Source of the DNA: an archaeon
GTDB lineage: Archaea > Nanobdellota > Nanobdellia > Woesearchaeales > ARS49
Length of the DNA stretch: 48,939 bases
NCBI GenBank assembly: GCA_020051845.1
Contig: JAGVQG010000060.1
Span: 1 to 48,939, forward strand
Direction of reading: 5' to 3'
The notes under the pieces: model-generated
The model's database searches: none
The model's input: only the letters and a program-made list of their open reading frames with translations
What the model was told of the DNA's origin: nothing
Shown: piece after piece, positions 22,489 to 46,405 of the stretch
Numbering within the stretch: position 1 is the first letter of the stretch
Layout of the letters: every line of letters begins with the position of its first letter
Made by a program: the position numbers and the translations under genes

Positions 22489-25400
22489 ATGGAGCCGCGA
22501 ACCAATGCCCTTTTGGCAGGCATTATTGGTGCTGTCCAGAAGAAGAAGCTTGAGGAGATAGTGCTGGGTCTGATAGACGCGCCTCTGGGCCAGATGGACT
22601 TGCGCACGCGGCAGTATCTTGAGATTGCGCAACAGAATGACTGGGAAGATATCGCTTGGCTTCTGAAAGAGCATCTTGTTGAACTCAAATTGGCTGAGAT
22701 GGATGCAATCAAGGTCAAGCAGGAGACTGGTCGCGACCAGGCGGAGATGCGGCTCGAGGATTATCTTATCTCAGATTGTCACCTTGCCATGATAGATCCT
22801 GCATTGCGTTTCATCGATCATCAAGTGGCTATAGCTGGCGGTCTGCGCGTGGATGTGTATGCCCGTGACTCTGTCCGCAATGATAATGTCAAGATCGAAC
22901 TCAAGTCGCACCTCAACACAGAGTCGGCTGACAAGCAGATCGACCAGCTGAGGCGCTACCTCAACGACAAACCAGGAGAACGCGTCTACTTCGTCGCGCA
23001 CAAGATCAACGGCAAGGTCTTCACCACGTTCGCCGATGAGATTCGGTCAGGTCGAATGCGCTTCTTCAAGTATGATGGAACCCAGCCTGACCTGAGGATT
23101 ACCGAGGTCACCGAGGAAGCGGTGCGCAATGACAAGTCCCTTGTCGAGATACAGAAAGCCTACAAATCGAAGAAGGTGAAATCCGCCGATCCGAATGTCG
23201 TTAGGTCTTCGATTCTTTCTAACGGATACGCAAAGAAGACAATGAATGGATCCGCGCCTGAAGCGTCGGAGACGCAAGTCGTTGCAGAACTAACACATGC
23301 AGTGGTCGAAGTCATGAAACCGGAGAGAATTTCCGCAAAGTCGGACGATCAGGTCCGAGCAGATGCGCCCATGTCAACAGGACCGGATATCGATCGGCTG
23401 GAGGAATTGTTCCGTGATCCTGAGAGACAGTCGTCCACAGAATCACTTGCGTTCGCGATTGCCGCTAGGCCATACTCCGACTCGGACGAGATATTGAAGT
23501 ATCTTGGAGACAATCTTGGCGCGCATTTCAAGAACGATGGGGCTGCGGCAAAGCGTTACGATCAGTCTCACAAAGCAGCGGATAATGCGTTGAAGAAACA
23601 TAGCAGGACACTAATCGGTGGTTTTGCAACGCTCGGAAAGCTCATCGCATCTGGCGGATTTCTGGAGAAAGGCAGCGCGGTTATACGGTCACTTGTCGCC
23701 TCCACAACAGAGTATTTCGAGAATGAGGATTATGCGCACATCCGTAAGGTCCACAAGGATGTGCTTGCCGGAGCGAAAGGTATCATGCCGGAACGCTGGT
23801 TTTCGTTCAGGGAAGGCGCAATTGATCGCATCCTGATGCAGTACTTGAAGACGTTTGACGATTGTGCTCACGCGCTCGACGATATGGACCATGATATCGC
23901 TCGGCAGTATGTGCGTGAACACAAGGAGATATCGGATTGCGTGCTTGATATGGGAGATTACACCATAGATGAACCGATCCTGTTGCAGTTCATGCTTCAC
24001 GACCACCACTACTATTGGCACGCGGCCAGACGCATCGTATCGAAATCGGTCGATCACTCGTCTACTGGTGGCAAAGACGGATTCAGTATGATGTACAACT
24101 ACTTGTTGGGCGACATCACCAAATATCGCGAACCGCCTTCGGTTATTGCCGGCAAGGATACGACGAGGCATCTCATGAAGGCGGCGAACAGGTCCGTGGT
24201 TGGAGATGTTGAGAAGCTCATGGATCCCCCTACTTACACTGCTATGAATTTGAACGGTATTATTTCGCACATCAATCCTCTAAGTGCGGCAAGGTCGAAA
24301 TCCGTGTATGAAACATTGATCAAGCAGATCGTGGAAATCAACAAAGATTGCAAGTTGAACAATCAATTGCATGTGGCCCTTTCTTCGAGGATGGCCGTGC
24401 CTTGTGGCATGGATCGTTTCAGCGAGAACATTGATATGATAAAAGACACGCTCGACGATCTCGTCAACCACCAAAAAACCGTGGTCAAAAAGGGCCCTGT
24501 GCGAAAGGCCATGCTGCTCAATGAAAGACATTTGCCAGATGTTTGTCATAACATCACTCCTTCTCTCAAATATCTCGAAGCGCTGGAATCGCCCGAACAA
24601 CACGTGATATCTGGCTTCCTGAGGATGCGTCTCCACCGGGCGAAGGTCATTGCTGAGTGCAATAAAGAACTGGCGTACACATACTTCTTCAGCCTCTCTC
24701 CCACCAGCGCGGGTTTGGTGTTGATGAATTGCGTGCGTGACAATCAATCTTTGTGGCCTGAACGGGCAATGCTCAGGAGATATGTTGATCTCGATGATGA
24801 GATGTTCCTGGGCGCGCTCGCGCACATAAGAACAGCGGATGGTCGTTCTGTGCATGATTGCATCGAAGATATCGTCGAAAATCCGTCACCCGCGGCAACG
24901 CAGTCCAATGCCGCGCCTGTCGTGACTGCGACGGTTGTCACCCCTGGGTCTGTCGAACCATTATATTCGCTCGATCAGGTGTTGATCGCTAGATTGAAGG
25001 GTGATACGACTGAGAGTATGAAGCAACGCGTGAGATACTTCGCTGAACAGGTCGAGGGTCTTGGCAAGCCCGCACAGGAAATCGGCGACATCCTCCTGAA
25101 GTCCGAGTTCAGCCACAACATGAAGCGCAAGGAGACAAGGTTGAGTGAGCTGGGCCTGTATTCATTCTTTGATGATATCTTTGTCACTCTCAAGAATGGT
25201 GCTGCATTGACATCTAAGCAGGTGGACAGGATTTACTCGTCCATCATGCAGGATGGTCCGGATGCGCGCAAGGAAGATGATGTCCCGTCTGCGAACGGCA
25301 AGGTCATCGTCGTGCGCGCCGATGCGATGAGGATCATCGAACATTTGGAGAATCCTCATAGCTACAAGCTTTTGATGGATGACTGCCTTAAATCCAGCGC

Positions 25401-26076
25401 CACATTCGGCGAGGCCGAAATTGTCTGGCTCAGGAGCAAACATGAGCGGTATCTTTTTTCGTTGAGCGATTCTCGCTGGAGCAATGCTGTGACTGAGCTT
25501 AGCGATTATCTGTTGAAGGTCAACTCGTTTCTGGGTGGTGTGCGCCGCGCAGCGGCGTCGAACGGCGCTGGATTCAAGAACGCCGCGGCCGCTGCGGCGT
25601 CTGCGGCAAGCGGGATAATCGAGAGGGTCGCGGACTTCAAGGGCGGGAATTCGTTCCAGGAGATAATCGAGGAGCTCAGCAGGGGAGTAGATATCGCGAG
25701 CGGAAAGAATCATTACGTGGATCCGCGTTCGGTCGACGGAAGATTCTATGCGAACACCAAGAACGCGCTGTTCAGCCCGTCGATGGAGGCGCACGCCGTG
25801 CTTGTCGACGCGCAAGTGAGGCGCTTGCAGGCTTTGTATGAGGGGCTGCCTGCTGCTGCGCGTGCGTACGCGTCAGGACTTGTGGTGCCTTCACTTGATC
25901 AGGAGAATTTCCTTCTGATGATCGATCCTAAGACTCAGGGCGGGCATATGTTCAAGGACAACGAGAATTATGGTTCTGTCTTGGGCGCTCTCAATAAAGG
26001 ATCGCAGAAAAGGGAGTCTGACACAATCATCGCTCCTGAATCCATCTCTTTGATGGAAGCTATGGCCAAGAAGTGA
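22489..26076 (+). CDS. 1195-aa protein with N-terminal PD-(D/E)XK-like (NucS/DUF91-like) nuclease region, remainder unknown
   Basis: MRLEDYLISD...LRVDVYARDSVRNDNVKIELKSHLNTESADKQIDQLRRYL fits E...D...ExK...Q topology; no recognisable domain beyond about residue 200. Confidence 0.6.
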   Translation: MEPRTNALLAGIIGAVQKKKLEEIVLGLIDAPLGQMDLRTRQYLEIAQQNDWEDIAWLLKEHLVELKLAEMDAIKVKQETGRDQAEMRLEDYLISDCHLAMIDPALRFIDHQVAIAGGLRVDVYARDSVRNDNVKIELKSHLNTESADKQIDQLRRYLNDKPGERVYFVAHKINGKVFTTFADEIRSGRMRFFKYDGTQPDLRITEVTEEAVRNDKSLVEIQKAYKSKKVKSADPNVVRSSILSNGYAKKTMNGSAPEASETQVVAELTHAVVEVMKPERISAKSDDQVRADAPMSTGPDIDRLEELFRDPERQSSTESLAFAIAARPYSDSDEILKYLGDNLGAHFKNDGAAAKRYDQSHKAADNALKKHSRTLIGGFATLGKLIASGGFLEKGSAVIRSLVASTTEYFENEDYAHIRKVHKDVLAGAKGIMPERWFSFREGAIDRILMQYLKTFDDCAHALDDMDHDIARQYVREHKEISDCVLDMGDYTIDEPILLQFMLHDHHYYWHAARRIVSKSVDHSSTGGKDGFSMMYNYLLGDITKYREPPSVIAGKDTTRHLMKAANRSVVGDVEKLMDPPTYTAMNLNGIISHINPLSAARSKSVYETLIKQIVEINKDCKLNNQLHVALSSRMAVPCGMDRFSENIDMIKDTLDDLVNHQKTVVKKGPVRKAMLLNERHLPDVCHNITPSLKYLEALESPEQHVISGFLRMRLHRAKVIAECNKELAYTYFFSLSPTSAGLVLMNCVRDNQSLWPERAMLRRYVDLDDEMFLGALAHIRTADGRSVHDCIEDIVENPSPAATQSNAAPVVTATVVTPGSVEPLYSLDQVLIARLKGDTTESMKQRVRYFAEQVEGLGKPAQEIGDILLKSEFSHNMKRKETRLSELGLYSFFDDIFVTLKNGAALTSKQVDRIYSSIMQDGPDARKEDDVPSANGKVIVVRADAMRIIEHLENPHSYKLLMDDCLKSSATFGEAEIVWLRSKHERYLFSLSDSRWSNAVTELSDYLLKVNSFLGGVRRAAASNGAGFKNAAAAAASAASGIIERVADFKGGNSFQEIIEELSRGVDIASGKNHYVDPRSVDGRFYANTKNALFSPSMEAHAVLVDAQVRRLQALYEGLPAAARAYASGLVVPSLDQENFLLMIDPKTQGGHMFKDNENYGSVLGALNKGSQKRESDTIIAPESISLMEAMAKK

Positions 26077-28056: not shown

Positions 28057-28079
28057 CTCCTAGTTTGTGCACCAGTGCC

Positions 28080-29132
28080 ATGAACATCAAAGGCAAGAAG
28101 ATGACTGCTAAACAGCAACGAAGCCCCGGGCTTCGTGATCCACGAAGCTTTGCTTCGAGTGAGCACCACACGTACGCTCCTGCAAGGACTAACACGTTGG
28201 AGGGCTTCCCTGAGATAAAGGGCGTCGATTTCAGCAAGGCGGTTGACATCAAGACTTTGCTTGACTCGTTCGCTTCGACAGGTTTCCAGGCGACGCAGCT
28301 CGCGCAAGCGGTAGAAATAGTCAACGAGATGCGCAAGGCAAAGGCCACGATATTCCTCTCCTGCACGTCCAACATCATAAGCAGCGGTCTGCGCGACATC
28401 ATCCGTTATCTCGTTCAGAACAAGATGATCGACGTCTTTGTCACTAGCGCGGGCGGCATCGAGGAGGACCTCATCAAGTGCATCAGGCCTTTCGTCATCG
28501 GCAAGTTCGAGGCTCCTGGCGCCATGCTCAACAAGGAGGGCATAAACCGCACAGGCAACATTTTCGTGCCGAACGACCGTTTCGCCAAGTTCGAGGATTT
28601 CATCGATCCGATTTTGGAGGAGCTTTACACGCAGCAGAAGAAGTCAGGCGAAATTCTCGACACCACCGAACTGATCGCGGAGCTCGGCAAGAGGATCGAC
28701 GACAAGGACAGCGTCCTTTTCTGGGCGCAGAAGAACAGGATACCTGTCTTCTGCCCGTGCATCACCGATGGTTCTTTGGGCGACCTGATATTCTTCCAGA
28801 AGCAGAAGCATCCTGATTTCAAGCTGGATATAACTGGCGACATGCTCAAGATCGTGAAGCTCACGCTCAACGCAGACAAGACCGGTTGCATACTTCTCGG
28901 CGGCGGCTCGGCGAAGCATTACGTCCTCAACGCTCAGCTCTTCAGAGAAGGGACTGAGTTCGCCGTCTACATCAACACCGCGCAGGAATTCGACGGTTCT
29001 GACAGCGGCGCAAGGCCTGATGAGGCTGTCTCCTGGGGCAAGATCAAGACGAACGCATTGGCTGTCAAGGTGCACGCCGACGCTACGCTTGTCTTCCCGC
29101 TTCTTGTCGCCGCGACGTTCGCGAGGAGATAG
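28080..29132 (+). CDS. dys: deoxyhypusine synthase
   Basis: FLSCTSNIISSGLRDIIRYLVQN, VTSAGGIEEDLIKC, ILLGGGSAKHYVLNA. Confidence 0.93.
   Translation: MNIKGKKMTAKQQRSPGLRDPRSFASSEHHTYAPARTNTLEGFPEIKGVDFSKAVDIKTLLDSFASTGFQATQLAQAVEIVNEMRKAKATIFLSCTSNIISSGLRDIIRYLVQNKMIDVFVTSAGGIEEDLIKCIRPFVIGKFEAPGAMLNKEGINRTGNIFVPNDRFAKFEDFIDPILEELYTQQKKSGEILDTTELIAELGKRIDDKDSVLFWAQKNRIPVFCPCITDGSLGDLIFFQKQKHPDFKLDITGDMLKIVKLTLNADKTGCILLGGGSAKHYVLNAQLFREGTEFAVYINTAQEFDGSDSGARPDEAVSWGKIKTNALAVKVHADATLVFPLLVAATFARR
28118..28157. repeat. alternating CGAAGC/GCTTCG hairpin cluster inside coding sequence
   Basis: ACGAAGCC-ccg-GGCTTCGT, GCTTCGTG-atc-CACGAAGC and CGAAGC-ttt-GCTTCG are overlapping alternative hairpins. 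Confidence 0.8.
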
Positions 29133-36902: not shown

Positions 36903-36911
36903 TTTATATAT
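36903..36911 (+). promoter_or_regulatory. TATA box for kinase pair
   Basis: TTTATATAT; implies translation start at or after 36949, not 36910. Confidence 0.55.
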
Positions 36912-36948
36912 GAAGTTTCCCGTGAATAACACGATATTTAGGAGTATC

Positions 36949-38046
36949 ATGGGGGAGAATATGGCTCAGGAAAGGACACCTATGCTGGCGAAGCAACTGA
37001 TGGATGAGTTCAACGGTATTGTCACTCCAAAGGATGAGCACAAGCTTGAGTTGAGTCATCTCCTGAATGAAGGCGGTACTTCTTTCGTTTTTCGTGGCAG
37101 CAGGGATTTTGGCGGCCACAAGCAGGATGTTGTGGTGAAGCTCTTCAAGTTCATCGATGAGATGACGAGTCCTAGGGCAAAAGAGTACGCCGAGAAACAC
37201 GATATTTTGGATGGCGAGGAGTGCGGTCTTCTCGCCGCGCAGCATTCTCAGTACGTCGTACAGCTCTTGGGTGCAGGCCACTTGAGAAGAAGACCGAACA
37301 GGGGTAATTTGCAGGAGAGGCCATATCTGGTGTTGCAGTACATCGAGCCGCAGCAATTCAACAATCTTGAGGAGTTTTTGATGGCGAAGGTCGAGGCAAA
37401 GACGATACCTAAGGCTTGCGATAGTCTGCCTTTGATGTCGCAGATAACGAGCGCTGTCCGCAGCGTCAAGAAGTATGTTTTGAATCACCGCGACCTCAAG
37501 CCAGCCAACATCATCTTCGGTCCATCTGAACGCATCTTCCTTTGTGATTTCCAGACAGCGGTGAAGGGCGACGACCTGGGATGTTATGAAGGTGCGTCCT
37601 TTGGTTCGTCGGTGTACTCCTCTCCTGAAGAGATCAGGAACGCGGTGCGCAAATCAGGTAAAGGCATATCCCATTATGACCCCAACATGGCCGACAATGA
37701 TCTTGAAAAGGTCACTAACACGGCGGATCTATACTCGTTGGGTCTGGTTTTCGTGCGCGTTTCCAATCCGACGATCACGATTTCCAGATTTCCGGATGAA
37801 GGGGCCAAGTGTGATGTGGCCCGGTTCTACAAAGTAATCGATGGTATCGTGGCAGACGTTCCAGACTATTGCAAGAGCCTTTGCGCGCGTTGCATTACCT
37901 ATAGTCCTGAGCATGGGCACAACTATGATCTCAACCCGGTGAATCTGAGGCATATTCCCAGGCCTGATCGTTTCGAGTCGATTGACGAACTTATCCAGCA
38001 TCTGAGAGTGGCTATGGTTTTGGTGAGGCCATACCATTCGAGATGA
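36949..38046 (+). CDS. Ser/Thr protein kinase-like protein A
   Basis: LNEGGTSFVFRG...VVVKL, NHRDLKPANIIF, CDFQTAV (DFG to DFQ), SSPEEIRNAVR. Confidence 0.85.
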   Translation: MGENMAQERTPMLAKQLMDEFNGIVTPKDEHKLELSHLLNEGGTSFVFRGSRDFGGHKQDVVVKLFKFIDEMTSPRAKEYAEKHDILDGEECGLLAAQHSQYVVQLLGAGHLRRRPNRGNLQERPYLVLQYIEPQQFNNLEEFLMAKVEAKTIPKACDSLPLMSQITSAVRSVKKYVLNHRDLKPANIIFGPSERIFLCDFQTAVKGDDLGCYEGASFGSSVYSSPEEIRNAVRKSGKGISHYDPNMADNDLEKVTNTADLYSLGLVFVRVSNPTITISRFPDEGAKCDVARFYKVIDGIVADVPDYCKSLCARCITYSPEHGHNYDLNPVNLRHIPRPDRFESIDELIQHLRVAMVLVRPYHSR

Positions 38047-38049
38047 AGT

Positions 38050-39222
38050 ATGGACCACGATAAACACGAAACGCCACAGCCGGCAATGAGATTGAGGGAA
38101 GAATTCAACGGTTCTATCCCTCCGACGAGCGAGTATAAGCTTCAGCTCGGCGATTTCCTCAATGAAGGAGGCACGTCCTTCGTGTTCTTGGGTGAGAAAT
38201 TATACAAAGGCGATATGCATCAGACCGTGGTGGTGAAGCTCGCCAAGACGATCGAAGAGATCACGAGCGCCAGGGCCAAAGAGTATGTCAAGAGCCACCC
38301 GGACATATTCTCCGATGAAGCGCGGAGTCTGCTCAAGGCGGAATATTCGAGTTATGTGGTCAAACTTTATGATAGGGGCGATTTCAGAGGAAGGCCGTAT
38401 CTCGTCATGGAGTATCTCCCGCAATGGCACTATCCGAATCTTGAGGAACGGCTCGCGTATGAGGCCGAGAACATCAAAAGTGTCGACATGAGCCCGAGGT
38501 CACGTCTAAGTATTATGTGGAAGATCGCGTCCGCGCTTCAAAGCGTCAAGTGTTACATCTTCAACCACCGCGACCTCAAGCCATCCAACATACTGTTCAC
38601 ATACTCTGAAGGAAGGGTCCGCATGTGCGACTTCCAGACGGCAATCTCGGACAACGAGGAGGACTGGTATGATGGCGTGTCGTTCGGGTCTTCTGTTTAT
38701 TCTTCACCCGAAGAGATAAGGAATGCCGTCCGTGGCGCGGGCAAGCGCCTTCCCACTCCGAAAGACAGTTCAGGATTGTATCTTGAACGCGTCGGGTCGA
38801 ATGCTGATCTTTATGCTCTGGGTCTGGTGTTCGCGCGCATAAGCAATCCATTGATCCCTGTGACGTCTTTTCCAAGCCATGCCGATAAATGCGACGAGCG
38901 TGCGTTCTACGAATCTGTCGACGGAATACTTGGCAAGTTGCCTGACTATTCTGCGCATGTGCGTGGCATAGCGGATTTTCCTGGTCTGCCCAACAGGATC
39001 AAGAACGACTGCATCGGTTCATGCAAGGATGTCGTGAAGCGGATTTGTGGGAAATGCATCACATTTGATTCTGTCCCGAGTCATTTCGGTCGTGGTCGTT
39101 TCGAGTCATTGGGCGAGATCATGACGAAACTTCAGGATGCTGTGTTCGCAATCGATCTTCATGATCATTTCAAATCAGCATATCAAAACCCACCTGATCA
39201 GAATTCGAAACCAGGCCCATGA
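38050..39222 (+). CDS. Ser/Thr protein kinase-like protein B (tandem paralog)
   Basis: LNEGGTSFVFLG...VVVKL, NHRDLKPSNILF, CDFQTAI, GSSVYSSPEEIRNAVRGAGK. Confidence 0.85.
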   Translation: MDHDKHETPQPAMRLREEFNGSIPPTSEYKLQLGDFLNEGGTSFVFLGEKLYKGDMHQTVVVKLAKTIEEITSARAKEYVKSHPDIFSDEARSLLKAEYSSYVVKLYDRGDFRGRPYLVMEYLPQWHYPNLEERLAYEAENIKSVDMSPRSRLSIMWKIASALQSVKCYIFNHRDLKPSNILFTYSEGRVRMCDFQTAISDNEEDWYDGVSFGSSVYSSPEEIRNAVRGAGKRLPTPKDSSGLYLERVGSNADLYALGLVFARISNPLIPVTSFPSHADKCDERAFYESVDGILGKLPDYSAHVRGIADFPGLPNRIKNDCIGSCKDVVKRICGKCITFDSVPSHFGRGRFESLGEIMTKLQDAVFAIDLHDHFKSAYQNPPDQNSKPGP

Positions 39223-39225
39223 TCA

Positions 39226-40116
39226 TCAATTCAATTCTTCCGCTATGTTGTGTAGGTCTTCCTTTATGGCGTATAGCGGCAGCATCAACGGCACGTTCGA
39301 CGTAGGCACCTTTCTGCTGATTCTATAGATGTCGAGGTTGAGCTGCCTGTCTCCTTCGGCGAGTGTGTTGTAGGATTGCATGTCTGACTTCGTCAGCATT
39401 GCGCGCACGAGTTTGAGGTGTTTCGAGTTCGTGCGTAACGCTTCGATTATCACGGGTGCGACTTTCATCTTGTCATTCTCCACGATCTCGCAAATGTCGC
39501 TGACCTGGTCGGTGATGTCCTCCAGTTGGCAGATTATCTTGTTCAGGCGTGTCGCGGCGGACTGTTCGAACGGCATGGTGTTCACCATGCGTCTGCAGAA
39601 GAGATTTAGCCTGTTTGCGAGGGTTTCCATCTCTTTTATCGATTTCAGACGTTCGTATTCCTTCTTTTCGATGGCGTCTATGGTTGAATCGAGCATGTCG
39701 ATGGCGACGCTCATCAACCGGGATTTCATCGATTCAAACTCGGTGTCGAGACCTTTCGCGATGTTCGTGAGGACACAAAGGTTCTCGCTTTGTTTTGTTA
39801 TCTCGAAGCCGATCAACAGGGAGGCGCCTTCCAGGATTCTCGGGAGCGCGTCGGCGTCATGGAACTTGATGCGTATCACGTCGTAGCCTTTGGTGTAGGG
39901 TCCGACGATGAAGCGTCTATGGCCTTTTGTGCCTTTCGGGATCTCGATCTCCGCTTCCCTGTGTTCTGGATTGGCATTGGCCTGCACGACAAGCTTCGCG
40001 GGTTGCGCGTCCACGTCGAGCTCGTCGCCTGCCTTGATGTTCAACGTCTCGCACCAGGTGCGCGGCAGCGTGAGCGTGAGCGTGTTGTTGCCTTGCTTGA
40101 TGACTTTCCTCTTCAT
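39226..40116 (-). CDS. AbrB (SpoVT-like) + PhoU domain regulator
   Basis: MKRKVIKQGNNTLTLTLPRTWCETLNIKAGDELDV is an AbrB swapped-hairpin domain; helical PhoU-like C-terminus. Confidence 0.87.
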   Translation of the reverse strand: MKRKVIKQGNNTLTLTLPRTWCETLNIKAGDELDVDAQPAKLVVQANANPEHREAEIEIPKGTKGHRRFIVGPYTKGYDVIRIKFHDADALPRILEGASLLIGFEITKQSENLCVLTNIAKGLDTEFESMKSRLMSVAIDMLDSTIDAIEKKEYERLKSIKEMETLANRLNLFCRRMVNTMPFEQSAATRLNKIICQLEDITDQVSDICEIVENDKMKVAPVIIEALRTNSKHLKLVRAMLTKSDMQSYNTLAEGDRQLNLDIYRISRKVPTSNVPLMLPLYAIKEDLHNIAEELN

Positions 40117-40226: not shown

Positions 40227-41273
40227 ATGGGAATCACGAGTTGTGCTGTGGATGTCGCGCCGGGATCCGGATTGTTCGTAGAGCACAAGAACGACACCTG
40301 GATAGCGAAACCCGACCGCCCCTTCGGCAAACTTCAGCGCGATCTCTATGAGGGTGCTTTCCGCGTCGACGAGAAGATGTTCGGCTGCACCATTGATATC
40401 GAGACGATGAACGACAGGTTGTACGTGTCGAAATCAAGCTGGCAGCGCCTTGTAGATCTGGTGGATGGTTTGTCTTTGGAGAATATGGAGTCGCTTGTCG
40501 GCCAGCGCAAGAGCGACGTCGAAAGCTTCATGCGATGCGCCAAAGATGCGAAGATAGGTGGTGTGGGTTTCGGGGAGTTGTTCGCTAAATATGAATCTGC
40601 TGTCGCGCACTTCCATTTCAGATGGAACTTCAGCAAGGCTGTCGACAGGTTGCTTGAGGCTGAGATAGCGAGGCTTCCAGCGCAGTATGAGTTCGATGTG
40701 ATGCTGCTCGCCAAGGACGCGCCGCCTCTTGAGACCTTGCGTTCGAGCGAGTATTTCCACCAGACATTGCAGGCGATAGCGGAGCATCCTGACACGCAGA
40801 ACGCCATAGCGTCATCCAACGGCACGTTGATCGAGGTGATGAAAGAATCCTCGTGGCTTTGGGAGCGCGTCGCCTATCTGGCTGAGAATTTCATGAAGGT
40901 CCACAATGAGGACATCCGGCTTCCGATACCATATTCATTCGTCGCCAACGAGCTGCGGAACCATCTCGTGGACTCATATAGATTCTCGGTCCCTATCAAT
41001 GCAGTTCCCGAAGGCCTTGCCGAGGAGATAAGGCTCCACGCCGGCGATCGATACGATCAGCTCATCCGCACCGTGACTCTGGCCGCGATGCAGGGCATTC
41101 TCAAGGAGAACGAGCATCACTATCAGATCCGCGGACAGAATGCGATGAAGATCAAGCTCGAAGAGCTTGCGGATGATTGTGTCGCCCGTGGCATGTTGGG
41201 CGACAGGATGGATATCTATGAGGTGGGCAAGCAGCGGGTGCTGGATCTTGCCGCCGATTTCGGAGGGGAGTAG
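40227..41273 (+). CDS. helical protein, candidate central/substrate module of split PEP-synthase-like enzyme
   Basis: 348 aa, helix-rich; first gene of operon whose next genes are the phosphohistidine and ATP-grasp domains. Confidence 0.5.
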   Translation: MGITSCAVDVAPGSGLFVEHKNDTWIAKPDRPFGKLQRDLYEGAFRVDEKMFGCTIDIETMNDRLYVSKSSWQRLVDLVDGLSLENMESLVGQRKSDVESFMRCAKDAKIGGVGFGELFAKYESAVAHFHFRWNFSKAVDRLLEAEIARLPAQYEFDVMLLAKDAPPLETLRSSEYFHQTLQAIAEHPDTQNAIASSNGTLIEVMKESSWLWERVAYLAENFMKVHNEDIRLPIPYSFVANELRNHLVDSYRFSVPINAVPEGLAEEIRLHAGDRYDQLIRTVTLAAMQGILKENEHHYQIRGQNAMKIKLEELADDCVARGMLGDRMDIYEVGKQRVLDLAADFGGE

Positions 41274-41274
41274 C

Positions 41275-41727
41275 ATGATAGATGACATTGTCAAACTTGT
41301 TCTTGGCGGTTCTGAGCTTGAATTGCGTGAGTTGCTGCACGGCAAGGTCGCGCATCCAGGCAGTGTTGCAGAAGGAGCGTATGAGATTGGTTACGCTCGT
41401 GTTGTATTGAAGAACAACAACAAGCTCGAAGGCCTCCAGGAGTTCAAGCACGGCGAGATTCTCGTCACACGTATGACTGATCCGTCCATGGAGAATGAGA
41501 TGGCGAACGCGTTGGCGTTCGTCACGGATCAAGGTGGAAGCACATGTCACGCAGCTATGATCGCGAGGCAGTTGCGTCGTCTGTGCATCATCGGCACGGA
41601 TCATGCCACGGAGCGGATACGCACGGGTGATCGGATATACATCACGCACCGGGTGCTTAACGATGAAATCGGCAGGATAAGGCGCGGCATAGTGCTCGGA
41701 GGCGAGGATGTTTACCGTCGACCTTGA
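41275..41727 (+). CDS. stand-alone PEP-utilising mobile (phosphohistidine swivel) domain
   Basis: GEILVTRMTDPSMENEMANALAFVTDQGGSTCHAAMIARQLRRLCIIGT. Confidence 0.88.
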   Translation: MIDDIVKLVLGGSELELRELLHGKVAHPGSVAEGAYEIGYARVVLKNNNKLEGLQEFKHGEILVTRMTDPSMENEMANALAFVTDQGGSTCHAAMIARQLRRLCIIGTDHATERIRTGDRIYITHRVLNDEIGRIRRGIVLGGEDVYRRP

Positions 41728-42640
41728 TTCTGGCAGGAAGGCCTTGCAGTCGATGCTTGGCGGCAAGGCTGCCAATCTGATCGAACTCGCGGGAATAGAC
41801 GGCGTCAAGGTGCCTAGAGGATATTGCATAACGACCGACGCGTTCCGGTCATTTACGAGGGATCTTGGTTTGACGGATTGGATGTGTGATATTGGACTAG
41901 TGTCTGAGTTCAGTCATAAGGCGCAGAACGCGATCAAAGACAAGGAGATGCCTTTCAGGATGGCGCATGATATCTGCATGGCGCTCTATGGTCTGCGCCC
42001 GCCTTTTGCTGTCCGTTCATCCGCCAGCCACGAGGATTCGAAGGATCATTCATTCGCAGGGCAGCAGGACAGTTACCTGAATGTCCAGCCAAAGGATCTG
42101 ATACCTGCCATAAAAGATTGTTGGGCTTCGCTGTACAACGCCCACGCGTTGCATTACCGCAGGCATTCCGATATCGGATCGATAGGGGGCATCGCGGTCA
42201 TAGTGCAGGAGATGGTGGATGCGCATTCTGCCGGCGTGATAATGACGCAGGATCCTGTCGAGGGCGATAAAGATACGATGGTCATCGACGCGTCCTGGGG
42301 CCTGGGTTGTTCTGTCGTATCAGGAGAGGTGAATCCTGATTCCTACAACATCCGCAAACGAGATGGCGCCATCGCTTACCGTTCGATCGCGAACAAACGA
42401 TTGATGACGGTGGGGAAGGACGGCCACAACGTCGAGGTCTCGCTTGTCGGCAGGCCCATCGCCGACGCGCCTGTGCTCGAGGAGAAGGATCTAGGACGTC
42501 TTTACAAAATCGCGATGGACATAGAGCGTCATTTCGGTTGCGCGCAGGATATCGAGTTCTCGATAGACCTTCGTGATATCTACATCGTTCAAGCGCGTCC
42601 GTTGCTTATGCCGGGGGAGGGTCCGAATGGCAAAACCTGA
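41708..42640 (+). CDS. stand-alone PPDK/PEP-synthase N-terminal ATP-grasp domain
   Basis: GGKAANLIEL, FAVRSSASHEDSKDHSFAGQQDSYLNV, VIVQEMVDAHSAGVIMTQDP, QDIEFSIDLRDIYIVQARPL. Confidence 0.9.
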   Translation: MFTVDLDSGRKALQSMLGGKAANLIELAGIDGVKVPRGYCITTDAFRSFTRDLGLTDWMCDIGLVSEFSHKAQNAIKDKEMPFRMAHDICMALYGLRPPFAVRSSASHEDSKDHSFAGQQDSYLNVQPKDLIPAIKDCWASLYNAHALHYRRHSDIGSIGGIAVIVQEMVDAHSAGVIMTQDPVEGDKDTMVIDASWGLGCSVVSGEVNPDSYNIRKRDGAIAYRSIANKRLMTVGKDGHNVEVSLVGRPIADAPVLEEKDLGRLYKIAMDIERHFGCAQDIEFSIDLRDIYIVQARPLLMPGEGPNGKT

Positions 42641-44237
42641 ATCGTACAATATACTGATGGTCAGCGCCGAAGTCAAGCCGCTTTGCAAGAAAGGCGGTGT
42701 GGCTGATGTGGTCAAGGACCTTGCCAGCTCATTATTGCAGGACAAGCTGCATGATAACGAGGTCGGCGTCATCACTTACATGAACAAAGACCTTGCCGAA
42801 GGGCTTCGGAACGAGGATTATCTGCAGCATATACGGCAGTTCGATGTCGATATCGACGGCAAGAATGAGCGGTTCACGCTCGGCGTCGTGCCGCTTGCTT
42901 GTGGATTGGATGTCTATGTGCTAAGCAACGAGAACTATCTTCACAGGGATAAGTCGGTATATCCTACGGCCGGTGCCAATCAGGTCGAATACGCGAAACG
43001 CTACGCTGCTTTCTCGAAAGCGGCCGCCAAGGTCATAATGGAAGAGCCGCGTCTTGTGCGGTCAGGGAAGACAGTCGTCCACCTGCATGACTACCATTCC
43101 GCGCTGACAGCGGTCTATCTCAAGGACGACCCTGGTTGGAAAGACAGGAAAGCCGGGATCGTGCAGACCGTGCACAACCTTGGTTTCGGTGCTTGGGATC
43201 AGGCGCGCGGATTCCAGGGTGTCTACTCGAGGGAAATCGCGAGATTCGCGGGCCTATTGCACCACTTCAACAGCAAGGAATTGGAGTTCTATGATCACAT
43301 CAACTTCCTCAAGGGAGGGTTGATATTCTCGGATATGGTGAATTGTGTTTCTCAGCGCTATGCCATCGAGGTGCGGCAACAGGATTTCGGCGGTGGTCTT
43401 GAGGGGGTCATGGGTGAATTGTTCGCGCAGGGACGCCTTAGGGGAATCACCAACGGTATAGATAGGGACTATTTGTTCTTCCGCCCGGACTTGAACGCGA
43501 GCGATTGCGTGACGCCATATGATGTGGGTCAGAACGTCGAGAAGAAGAAGGTGTTGAACAGAGGGATCTTCAACGAGATCCTCAAGGAGAACGATATGAG
43601 TTGGTTGGCCGATCATAGGAAGCAGACGATCGGCATGGTGGCGCGTCTAACTGAGCAGAAATTCAAGCTGATGTGCGAGAAAGATAGCATGGCGCTTGAG
43701 AAGATACTCGGAATGGATACTAATGTGGTGGTCTGTGGTGATAATGGCGGAGGAAAAGACGGCATCCGGTCGGTAATGGAGCGGATGCGCAAAAAGCCGA
43801 ACTTCGTCTGGATAAATCCTGGCGAAGGATTGCGGTGGAAAGACAAGGTGCTGGGCTTCGAGGAGATCGCTCATATGGTGTATGCGATATCGGACTTCCA
43901 TCTTGTGCCTTCGCACTATGAGCCATGCGGTCTGACTCAGATGATAGGGATGCGCATGGGTGCCATACCTATCGTGAGCGCTGTCGGCGGTCTCGCGACG
44001 ACGGTCTTCCCGTATGATAGCAGTGATGAGAGGAGCAATGGTTTTGTCATACATCCGACGACGCCGGAGATGGTGGTGGCTACAGTTGCCGATGCGTTGT
44101 CTGTGGCTGCGCCGGGTTCATCTACACGCAAACGGCTCATACGCAAGTGCATGGATGAGGATTATGGCTGGGACAAGCGACTTGGGGCATATTATGACCT
44201 CTATGACGCTGCCCTGGCGAAGGGGGTGAGACCATGA
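42627..44237 (+). CDS. glgA: glycogen/starch synthase, GT5 family
   Basis: MVSAEVKPLCKKGGVADVV, TVHNLGFGA, NGIDRDYL, VPSHYEPCGLTQMIGMRMGAIPIV. Confidence 0.92.
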   Translation: MAKPESYNILMVSAEVKPLCKKGGVADVVKDLASSLLQDKLHDNEVGVITYMNKDLAEGLRNEDYLQHIRQFDVDIDGKNERFTLGVVPLACGLDVYVLSNENYLHRDKSVYPTAGANQVEYAKRYAAFSKAAAKVIMEEPRLVRSGKTVVHLHDYHSALTAVYLKDDPGWKDRKAGIVQTVHNLGFGAWDQARGFQGVYSREIARFAGLLHHFNSKELEFYDHINFLKGGLIFSDMVNCVSQRYAIEVRQQDFGGGLEGVMGELFAQGRLRGITNGIDRDYLFFRPDLNASDCVTPYDVGQNVEKKKVLNRGIFNEILKENDMSWLADHRKQTIGMVARLTEQKFKLMCEKDSMALEKILGMDTNVVVCGDNGGGKDGIRSVMERMRKKPNFVWINPGEGLRWKDKVLGFEEIAHMVYAISDFHLVPSHYEPCGLTQMIGMRMGAIPIVSAVGGLATTVFPYDSSDERSNGFVIHPTTPEMVVATVADALSVAAPGSSTRKRLIRKCMDEDYGWDKRLGAYYDLYDAALAKGVRP

Positions 44238-44665
44238 ACGATATGATCCGCAAGGCTTTGGAAGATGGCTGCAGGAACGAGATGAACAGGCCAAGCTATG
44301 ATAGGTATGTCGTGCTGATCTCTCCGACGCACGTGACGTTCGAGCGTGAATGGAACTATGATGATTGGGACATGAACGAGGACTGGGGTCGCTCTGGCTC
44401 GAAGGTCGAACTGCCTGCTTTTGAGCAGCTTGTCGAGAAGCTGATGCAGGAGAAGAAGGTGAAGGAGGTCCTTCCGTCGACGAATTGCTTCCATTCCCAC
44501 GCTAAGGAGGACAATGGCGCGCAAGAGGACGTCGACCTTGATGGCTACGTCGGAAATGCGTCGATAGAGATGGCGCTGATCGGCAACGCGCTGAAGTACC
44601 GCTTCCTGCCGGGCATCGACCGTGTGCCCAAGGTGAGGTTGCAGCAAGGAAAGGATTACCTGTAG
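44234..44665 (+). CDS. unknown protein, paralog family member 1, glycogen operon
   Basis: ATGA overlap with glgA; LISPTHVTFEREWNY shared with next gene. Confidence 0.7.
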   Translation: MNDMIRKALEDGCRNEMNRPSYDRYVVLISPTHVTFEREWNYDDWDMNEDWGRSGSKVELPAFEQLVEKLMQEKKVKEVLPSTNCFHSHAKEDNGAQEDVDLDGYVGNASIEMALIGNALKYRFLPGIDRVPKVRLQQGKDYL

Positions 44666-44672
44666 GTGCAAA

Positions 44673-45083
44673 ATGGAACTTGATGAGTTATTGAGGGGTA
44701 TGTCTGAGGAGTGCAGGCGTGATTACGGCGCTGAGGGATTCACTGCGTGCAACGCGTTCATCACTCCGACGCATGTCATCCTGAACCGCAGATGGGAGCA
44801 CCGTGATAGTCTCAACAATGAGTGGCAGGGGTATTCGCAGGCGCGTGTCGAGCGCGCGGTCATTGTTGATCTGCTTAAGATGTACACTGTCGCAGGATCT
44901 ATCGACGAGTCGGTGCCGTCCTTGAATGCCATCTATAGTTCGGAGAAGGCTGAAGGCCGACCGTTGACAGAGACAAAGCGATCTGATTACACTGGTACTG
45001 TACGCGTCAGGTTATCAGGTCCTCAGTTGCAGATGAGGTATTGGTTCGAGCCGAGTGCGCCTGAGTCGACTGAAAACAAATGA
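44673..45083 (+). CDS. unknown protein, paralog family member 2, glycogen operon
   Basis: FITPTHVILNRRWEH shared with previous gene. Confidence 0.7.
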   Translation: MELDELLRGMSEECRRDYGAEGFTACNAFITPTHVILNRRWEHRDSLNNEWQGYSQARVERAVIVDLLKMYTVAGSIDESVPSLNAIYSSEKAEGRPLTETKRSDYTGTVRVRLSGPQLQMRYWFEPSAPESTENK

Positions 45084-45095
45084 GGTAGATGATGC

Positions 45096-45524
45096 ATGAT
45101 TGAAGAGACTGATAGGCGGATTGTGGGATATTTGCGCAGGAACGCGCGTGTGTCGCTCACCGAGGTGGCGAAGGACGTGGGGTTGCCTGTGAGCACTGTT
45201 TATGATAGGATGCGAAGGATCGAGAGGACCCATTTGAGCAGGCACGCGAGCCTGCTGGACATGAAGGATTATGCGAGGATGGCTGTCGTGCTGCGTCTTG
45301 AGCCGCAGCGCAGGGCGGCTGTCCTGGAGTTCCTGAAAAAACATGAGAACGTCAATTCGCTTTATCGGATCAACCACGGATTTGATTGTATCGCCGAGCT
45401 TGTCTTCCCTTCGATGGTGCGGCTGCATGATTTCGTGCGGGACCTCAACACGGGTTTCGGGGTGTTGGAATGCCACACCTATGCCATCGTCGACGACCTC
45501 AAGCGCGAGGAGTTCGTGCCTTAG
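45096..45524 (+). CDS. Lrp/AsnC-type transcriptional regulator
   Basis: IEETDRRIVGYLRRNARVSLTEVAKDVGLPVSTVYDRMRRIE. Confidence 0.85.
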   Translation: MIEETDRRIVGYLRRNARVSLTEVAKDVGLPVSTVYDRMRRIERTHLSRHASLLDMKDYARMAVVLRLEPQRRAAVLEFLKKHENVNSLYRINHGFDCIAELVFPSMVRLHDFVRDLNTGFGVLECHTYAIVDDLKREEFVP

Positions 45525-46405
45525 CTGAAGAACAAGAACAATAGCAGGTAGAGCACTGGCACGACGAGGAACATCATGAATTCTGTCGCGCGGTGGATCT
45601 TCAATAGGAGCGCTTCTTTCTTCCTTTCATGCAGCTCGAGCATCACGACGTTGATGATGAACGTGCCCAGTAATATCAGGTAGGTGAGGCCCATGAATTC
45701 GTCGGCGAATGTCAGGTAGCCTACGGGCGGTATCTGGTTGCTTATCGACACATGGAACATGACTGCGGCGACAAGACTGCTTCCTGCCATCCCGAGTCTG
45801 GTGGTTATCTTGTCAGGGTCGAGCACGAAGCTGCAAAGCACGACCAAGACTATGAAGAATACTGGCAGGAATGTCTTTAGGAACGAATTGATCGGTATCC
45901 GTGATATGTCGACGTTGAACACGTATTGCGAATATGTCTCGCCGTAGATCGCGTAGCTGTGTTTTTTGGAACATGTGCTCCAGCCGTCTAAGTTCCATCC
46001 TGCGAAAGCGATCGAGTCGTCGATGCCGCTCTCTTTGTTGTTCGCCACGTATCTGATGTCTTGTATGGTGCTGCTTTTGTCCTCTATTATTATCTGCATC
46101 CTCTGCGCATCGAACGGGAATTGTTTGAGGTCGACAGGGCTGTTGAGGTTGGCTTGTATGCGGTAGAACTTCTCGGTCGGAGTGTCGGTTATCTTATCGA
46201 CGCTCGCTGCGCGGCCGTTGATGAACTCGAATTCAGGTGAGCACGCTTCTTTGCATTTGAGCGAAAGGTAGAAGTCCGCCGTGAAAGCTCCTGTCGCGAC
46301 GTCGAACTTGCCGAGGTTGAGCAGGTAAAGCCCGACATTCACGTCAGTCGCTGCCACAGTGCCTGCCAGCATTATGAATATGAGCGGGAAAATCCAGATT
46401 CTCAT
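45521..46405 (-). CDS. pentameric ligand-gated ion channel (Cys-loop superfamily) homolog
   Basis: Signal peptide; beta-rich ectodomain with DLKQFPFDAQRMQIIIED; four TMs; M2-M3 region TRLGMAGSSLVAAVMFHVSISNQIPPVGYLTFADEFM. Confidence 0.82.
   Translation of the reverse strand: MRIWIFPLIFIMLAGTVAATDVNVGLYLLNLGKFDVATGAFTADFYLSLKCKEACSPEFEFINGRAASVDKITDTPTEKFYRIQANLNSPVDLKQFPFDAQRMQIIIEDKSSTIQDIRYVANNKESGIDDSIAFAGWNLDGWSTCSKKHSYAIYGETYSQYVFNVDISRIPINSFLKTFLPVFFIVLVVLCSFVLDPDKITTRLGMAGSSLVAAVMFHVSISNQIPPVGYLTFADEFMGLTYLILLGTFIINVVMLELHERKKEALLLKIHRATEFMMFLVVPVLYLLLFLFFS

Follow-up and report, generated by a model that had tools for sequence, protein, structure and literature searches.

An archaeal operon combining free-standing phosphohistidine swivel and ATP-grasp proteins with a GT5 glycogen synthase: a candidate three-component dikinase

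The window analyzed here, a stretch of 48,939 nucleotides, is contig 37 of a 68-contig, 1.33-Mb Woesearchaeales genome (96.6% complete), and it carries an operon in which a phosphohistidine swivel domain and a PPDK-type ATP-grasp domain are encoded as separate proteins alongside a glycogen synthase. Judging from the encoded sequences, we put the probability at roughly 55% that these genes specify a three-component dikinase of the kind represented by rifampicin phosphotransferase (RPH) and HpeHI. The free ATP-grasp protein would bind ATP and pass the beta-phosphate to His92 of the swivel protein, with release of AMP and Pi as the histidine is phosphorylated. The phospho-swivel would then hand its phosphate to the acceptor while docked on an acceptor-binding partner, most likely the 348-aa protein A348. 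That acceptor is probably a sugar or sugar-derived compound with a metabolism tied to the operon's GT5 synthase, a suggestion based on the presence of GlgA in the operon and on an A348 ortholog encoded beside a nucleotidyltransferase. Dikinase logic without a PEP barrel, including two-protein versions of it, is already known in bacteria; the novelty lies in a swivel that stands alone as a protein and in an operon shared with GlgA.

The genes form a tight run at 40227-45083 on the forward strand: A348 (40227..41273), which belongs to no known family; the free swivel protein (41275..41727; 150 aa); the free ATP-grasp (PPDK_N) protein (41708..42640; 310 aa); GlgA, a GT5 glycogen/starch synthase (42627..44237; 536 aa); and the paralogs P143 (44234..44665) and P136 (44673..45083), both without a family. 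The first-pass annotation had listed this set as one tightly packed operon, and all of the ORFs lie at the positions it gave, with two starts refined (ATG 41275 for the swivel and ATG 42627 for GlgA). A gap of 1 nt separates A348 from the swivel gene, followed by overlaps of 20 nt (swivel/ATP-grasp), 14 nt (ATP-grasp/GlgA), and 4 nt (GlgA/P143), and gaps of 7 and 12 nt after P143 and P136. Most starts downstream of A348 are preceded by a purine-rich, GGAGG- or GGTGA-like Shine-Dalgarno stretch. An Lrp/AsnC-type regulator encoded 12 nt 3' of P136 (45096..45524, forward strand; PF13404, E 4.7e-11; PF01037, E 6.9e-8) probably belongs to the operon, and a divergent AbrB-PhoU protein (PF04014 and PF01895) is encoded upstream on the reverse strand (39226..40116).

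Several other genes of the window are worth recording. Just upstream of the operon region are two neighboring paralogous eukaryote-like Ser/Thr kinases on the same strand (36910-39222). A protein encoded on the reverse strand at 45521-46405 has an N-terminal signal-like stretch, C-terminal hydrophobic stretches, and a weak match, under the curated cut-off, to PF02931 (E 1.2e-4), the family of ligand-binding domains from pentameric ligand-gated channels. Farther away are a 1195-aa protein with zero Pfam matches (22489-26076) and a deoxyhypusine synthase gene (28065-29132), an archaeal marker; relatives of this archaeon have small genomes, which points to a probable DPANN affiliation.

The ATP-grasp protein matches PF01326 with an E-value of 2.4e-77, and its best solved relative is the RPH of Listeria (3.8e-46). 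RPH residues K22, R117, E297, Q309, and R311 are identical in it (K20, R103, E283, Q295, and R297), the first three being among the ATP-site residues of RPH (PMC4844700). Its best-scoring archaeal relatives are lone ATP-grasp proteins of about 310 aa with 34-40% identity. Such proteins are common in the order; their partners carry the substrate domain and the swivel fused, and are often present in many copies. The swivel protein matches PF00391 (E 8.5e-20) and retains the GGxxxHA histidine motif as GGSTCHAA, with His92 as the catalytic residue. Only three swivel matches occur in this genome, which makes it likely that the swivel and ATP-grasp proteins are mutual partners.

Published systems with a comparable division of labor are HpeHI (2025), CreHI, and PpsAB, phenolic two-component dikinases in which an ATP-grasp protein works with a second protein made of substrate domain and swivel; HpeHI-type dikinases produce AMP and cannot do without the swivel histidine (PMC12167813). 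The window shares with them the separate ATP-grasp protein, the swivel histidine, and the lack of a PEP barrel, so that the logic cannot be called undescribed, as had been suggested. Their swivel shares a chain with the substrate domain, whereas here it is its own protein, and, as a second difference, no phenol pathway genes are seen here. RPH-Lm (PMC4844700) is the closest solved ATP-grasp structure, with key residues kept, and follows the same logic of a swivel combined with a non-PEP acceptor domain. However, it is a single chain running from ATP-grasp through the RIF-binding domain to the swivel, whereas the chains are separate in the window and a RIF-binding-like fold of A348 is only a candidate.

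A348 itself has no Pfam, PDB, or PHROG match and nothing above cut-off in NCBIfam; searches of 60 relatives and of plasmids likewise came back empty. A Chromobacterium "relative" in the GTDB species collection proved to be a coincidence, the match lying antisense to what looks like a transport gene of TolQ/ExbB type. Profile comparison gave a borderline similarity: residues 62-329 align collinearly with residues 58-334 of the RPH-type substrate domains of the relatives, scoring 24.3 and 23.5 with two full-length alignments. These scores beat all 100 shuffles and 53 unrelated proteins used as controls, the sole higher control being a family member; with a third, cruder module alignment the signal was not above controls, and HHsuite gave a probability below 6%. 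Faint as this similarity is, we regard homology of A348 to the RPH-type substrate domains as likely. Its AlphaFold model (pLDDT 43) was unusable and returned no Foldseek match at E <= 0.001, and the Arg666-Glu667 acceptor-site pair of RPH (PMC4844700) was not located in A348. One module of the relatives was modeled at a pLDDT of 90 with RPH as its best Foldseek match (E 6.8e-15), a prediction that supports an RPH fold for their substrate domain family.

Among 382 genomes of the phylum, a single A348 ortholog was found, in a genome from another order (G432). It is about 217 aa long and split over two contig ends (L092:1-3181 and L091:18346-19414), the pieces of which we infer to belong to one gene. 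It is 51% identical to A348 over residues 16-119 and 43% over 122-208, then stops, so that it lacks a counterpart of residues 209-348. A PF00483 sugar nucleotidyltransferase (1.3e-27) is encoded directly 3' of it and a weakly Ap4A-phosphorylase-like protein 5' of it, and a divergent AbrB-PhoU gene (L092:1920-2930; both PF04014 and PF01895) lies upstream of the run, as in the window. The ATP-grasp matches of G432 fall solely in ORFs >800 aa; there is no free ATP-grasp protein and there are no dikinase partners by the ortholog. Because the ortholog does without residues 209-348 in a genome that has no free ATP-grasp protein, A348 is not always part of a dikinase. Residues 1-208 thus appear, from the alignment, to be a kept core linked to sugar-nucleotide genes at both loci, and residues 209-348 may be the portion that goes with the dikinase.

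The glycogen synthase of the operon bears on a second reading, in which the swivel would phosphorylate glucose units of GlgA's polymer, as plant glucan,water dikinase (GWD) does. GlgA matches PF08323 (E 2.1e-46) and 1rzu (E 2.4e-36), has the Glyco_transf_5 domain, and retains the KxGG, EPCGLTQ, and RLTxQK motifs; its score against TIGR02095 is 297.8 bits, below the cut-off of 328. The same genome has another alpha-glucan locus (L108:1475-13181; G000 contig 14) encoding a GT3 glycogen synthase (PF05693, E 9.7e-155), a GT4/5 enzyme, GH57, and, at the contig end, the start of a GH15, and this makes an alpha-glucan plausible. GT3 is reported to be the DPANN form of glycogen synthase, with GT5 found mainly in other archaea, and the very capacity of DPANN archaea for glycogen synthesis is still described as questionable (PMC11046441). 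Of 247 genomes, just a few have real GT5 relatives, and none of these is a sampled member of the same family. The window GlgA is a second, atypical synthase of this genome; it might make a special product, but this is no proof of phosphate transfer.

GlgA shares the operon and its ORF overlaps those of its neighbors, which favors such a glucan dikinase. GWD has in common with the operon an ATP-grasp and a histidine domain without a PEP domain, and possibly a glucan link. The swivel, however, matches PF00391 rather than a GWD-type phosphohistidine domain, the chains are separate, and no starch-binding module was found by Pfam in A348, P143, or P136. PF22973 (GWD1_pHisD) has no match in the genome, a weak argument since control genomes have none either. 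The order of the genes had also been read as that of GWD, but it is that of ordinary two-component dikinases: in Thermomicrobium roseum a substrate/swivel gene precedes the ATP-grasp gene, as in the window, so that the order is no pointer to GWD. The earlier appeal to GWD and RPH thus holds for dikinase machinery lacking a PEP domain, with an ATP-grasp protein nearest RPH, and fails for any likeness specific to GWD.

Dikinase clusters and GlgA do not co-occur elsewhere, either: GlgA is absent from all 39 dikinase stretches fetched from related archaea, no substrate-swivel/lone ATP-grasp locus that was read in the order lies beside it, and the four GT5/GlgA loci read in other genomes have zero dikinase genes. 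The link between dikinase and GlgA is unique so far. This pattern largely matches what the first-pass annotation said would refute its reading, homologous clusters that never co-occur with glycogen genes, although the operon as a whole is known from a single genome, which limits any test of its conservation. As for the proposed glucan acceptor, the operon shared with glycogen synthase stands and the acceptor is drawn from adjacency in one genome. We consider a glucan dikinase improbable. Equally doubtful on the sequences is a prokaryotic glucan-phosphorylating system in which the free carrier and ATP-grasp kinase would act, via A348 and coupled to the GT5 enzyme, on a nascent alpha-glucan or sugar precursor.

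About as unlikely is a reading in which the target of the swivel and ATP-grasp proteins is another protein (A348, GlgA, or P143/P136), glucan synthesis being regulated in this way, with A348 as a regulator and not a small-molecule site. It fits this that A348 is found in G432 close to sugar-nucleotide and PhoU-like genes but with no dikinase genes, and so do the Lrp regulator and the two paralogs without a family in the operon. P143 and P136 are 23% identical (E 1e-13) and have no clear homolog in the 382 genomes of the phylum, with one marginal 47-residue match. Against a protein acceptor, we know of none in the RPH/HpeHI branch apart from the swivel histidine.

Less likely still is that an assembly frameshift has divided a single A348-swivel protein, which would leave an ordinary two-component dikinase. 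Relatives do have the substrate domain and swivel fused, and the swivel frame is open for about 40 codons 5' of its ATG. But the codon-usage signal remains positive in the frame of A348 as far as the stop codon and changes frame where the swivel begins, the ATG of which is preceded by a strong Shine-Dalgarno sequence, GGAGGGG. There is no obvious frameshift at the split, and the candidate substrate protein and the swivel are not on one chain here; the ORFs are separate. Across the order (295 genomes), among the matches listed, other swivel matches sit in ORFs >340 aa, and the 150-aa protein of the window is the sole free-standing one, a contig-edge fragment aside. On plasmids, none of the matches covering 80% of the query was a free swivel protein; the matches looked at included fused RPH/PpsA-like enzymes and two-component pairs.

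That no gene for the PEP/pyruvate domain accompanies these proteins was confirmed genome-wide. The TIM barrel is absent from the operon, and no stand-alone PEP_C (PF02896) gene occurs in the 96.6%-complete genome. Its two PF02896 matches lie inside an 814-aa PEP synthase (PpsA) and a 995-aa PPDK, both also carrying an ATP-grasp domain, so that no PEP subunit acting in trans is seen. In a tree, the window's ATP-grasp protein falls outside the clade of the order's true PEP synthases, on a branch so long that its exact place is unsure. That the operon is a PEP synthase or PPDK in pieces, borrowing its PEP domain in trans, is therefore very improbable: among solved structures, PEP synthases do give the best matches to the swivel (6.6e-17, followed by RPH at 2.4e-7), but the genome retains both enzymes intact without a free PEP_C, and the ATP-grasp protein stands apart from the PpsA clade.

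The family of RPH-like substrate-swivel proteins has undergone a huge expansion in the same archaeal order, with at least 13 matches in 21 of 295 genomes and 47 candidates in one of them. The expansion takes the form of module runs around one lone ATP-grasp gene and of giant ORFs. One ORF of 3761 aa (L073:8021-19306) has one ATP-grasp domain and eight modules, all eight with intact His motifs; others have seven modules plus ATP-grasp in at least 3638 aa (L086:3-10919) or four modules in 2217 aa (L085:10310-16963), and a similar giant-protein or module-cluster locus is found at L087:4663-15215. Together, the giants and clusters look like a modular phosphorylation system. The literature searched holds no description of modular giants; a 2021 study named a "phenylphosphate synthase" in DPANN and did not find the carboxylase for it (PMC8091004).

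If the operon does encode a three-component dikinase, its free-standing swivel would act as a phosphorelay carrier, as HPr does, not as a hinge within one enzyme, and several acceptors could be within its reach. The literature searched describes no prokaryotic glucan dikinases; should the acceptor be a sugar or glucan, the operon would add a phosphorylation step to prokaryotic glucan metabolism that is absent from that literature. The operon also draws attention to the unexamined expansion of RPH-like modules in this archaeal order.
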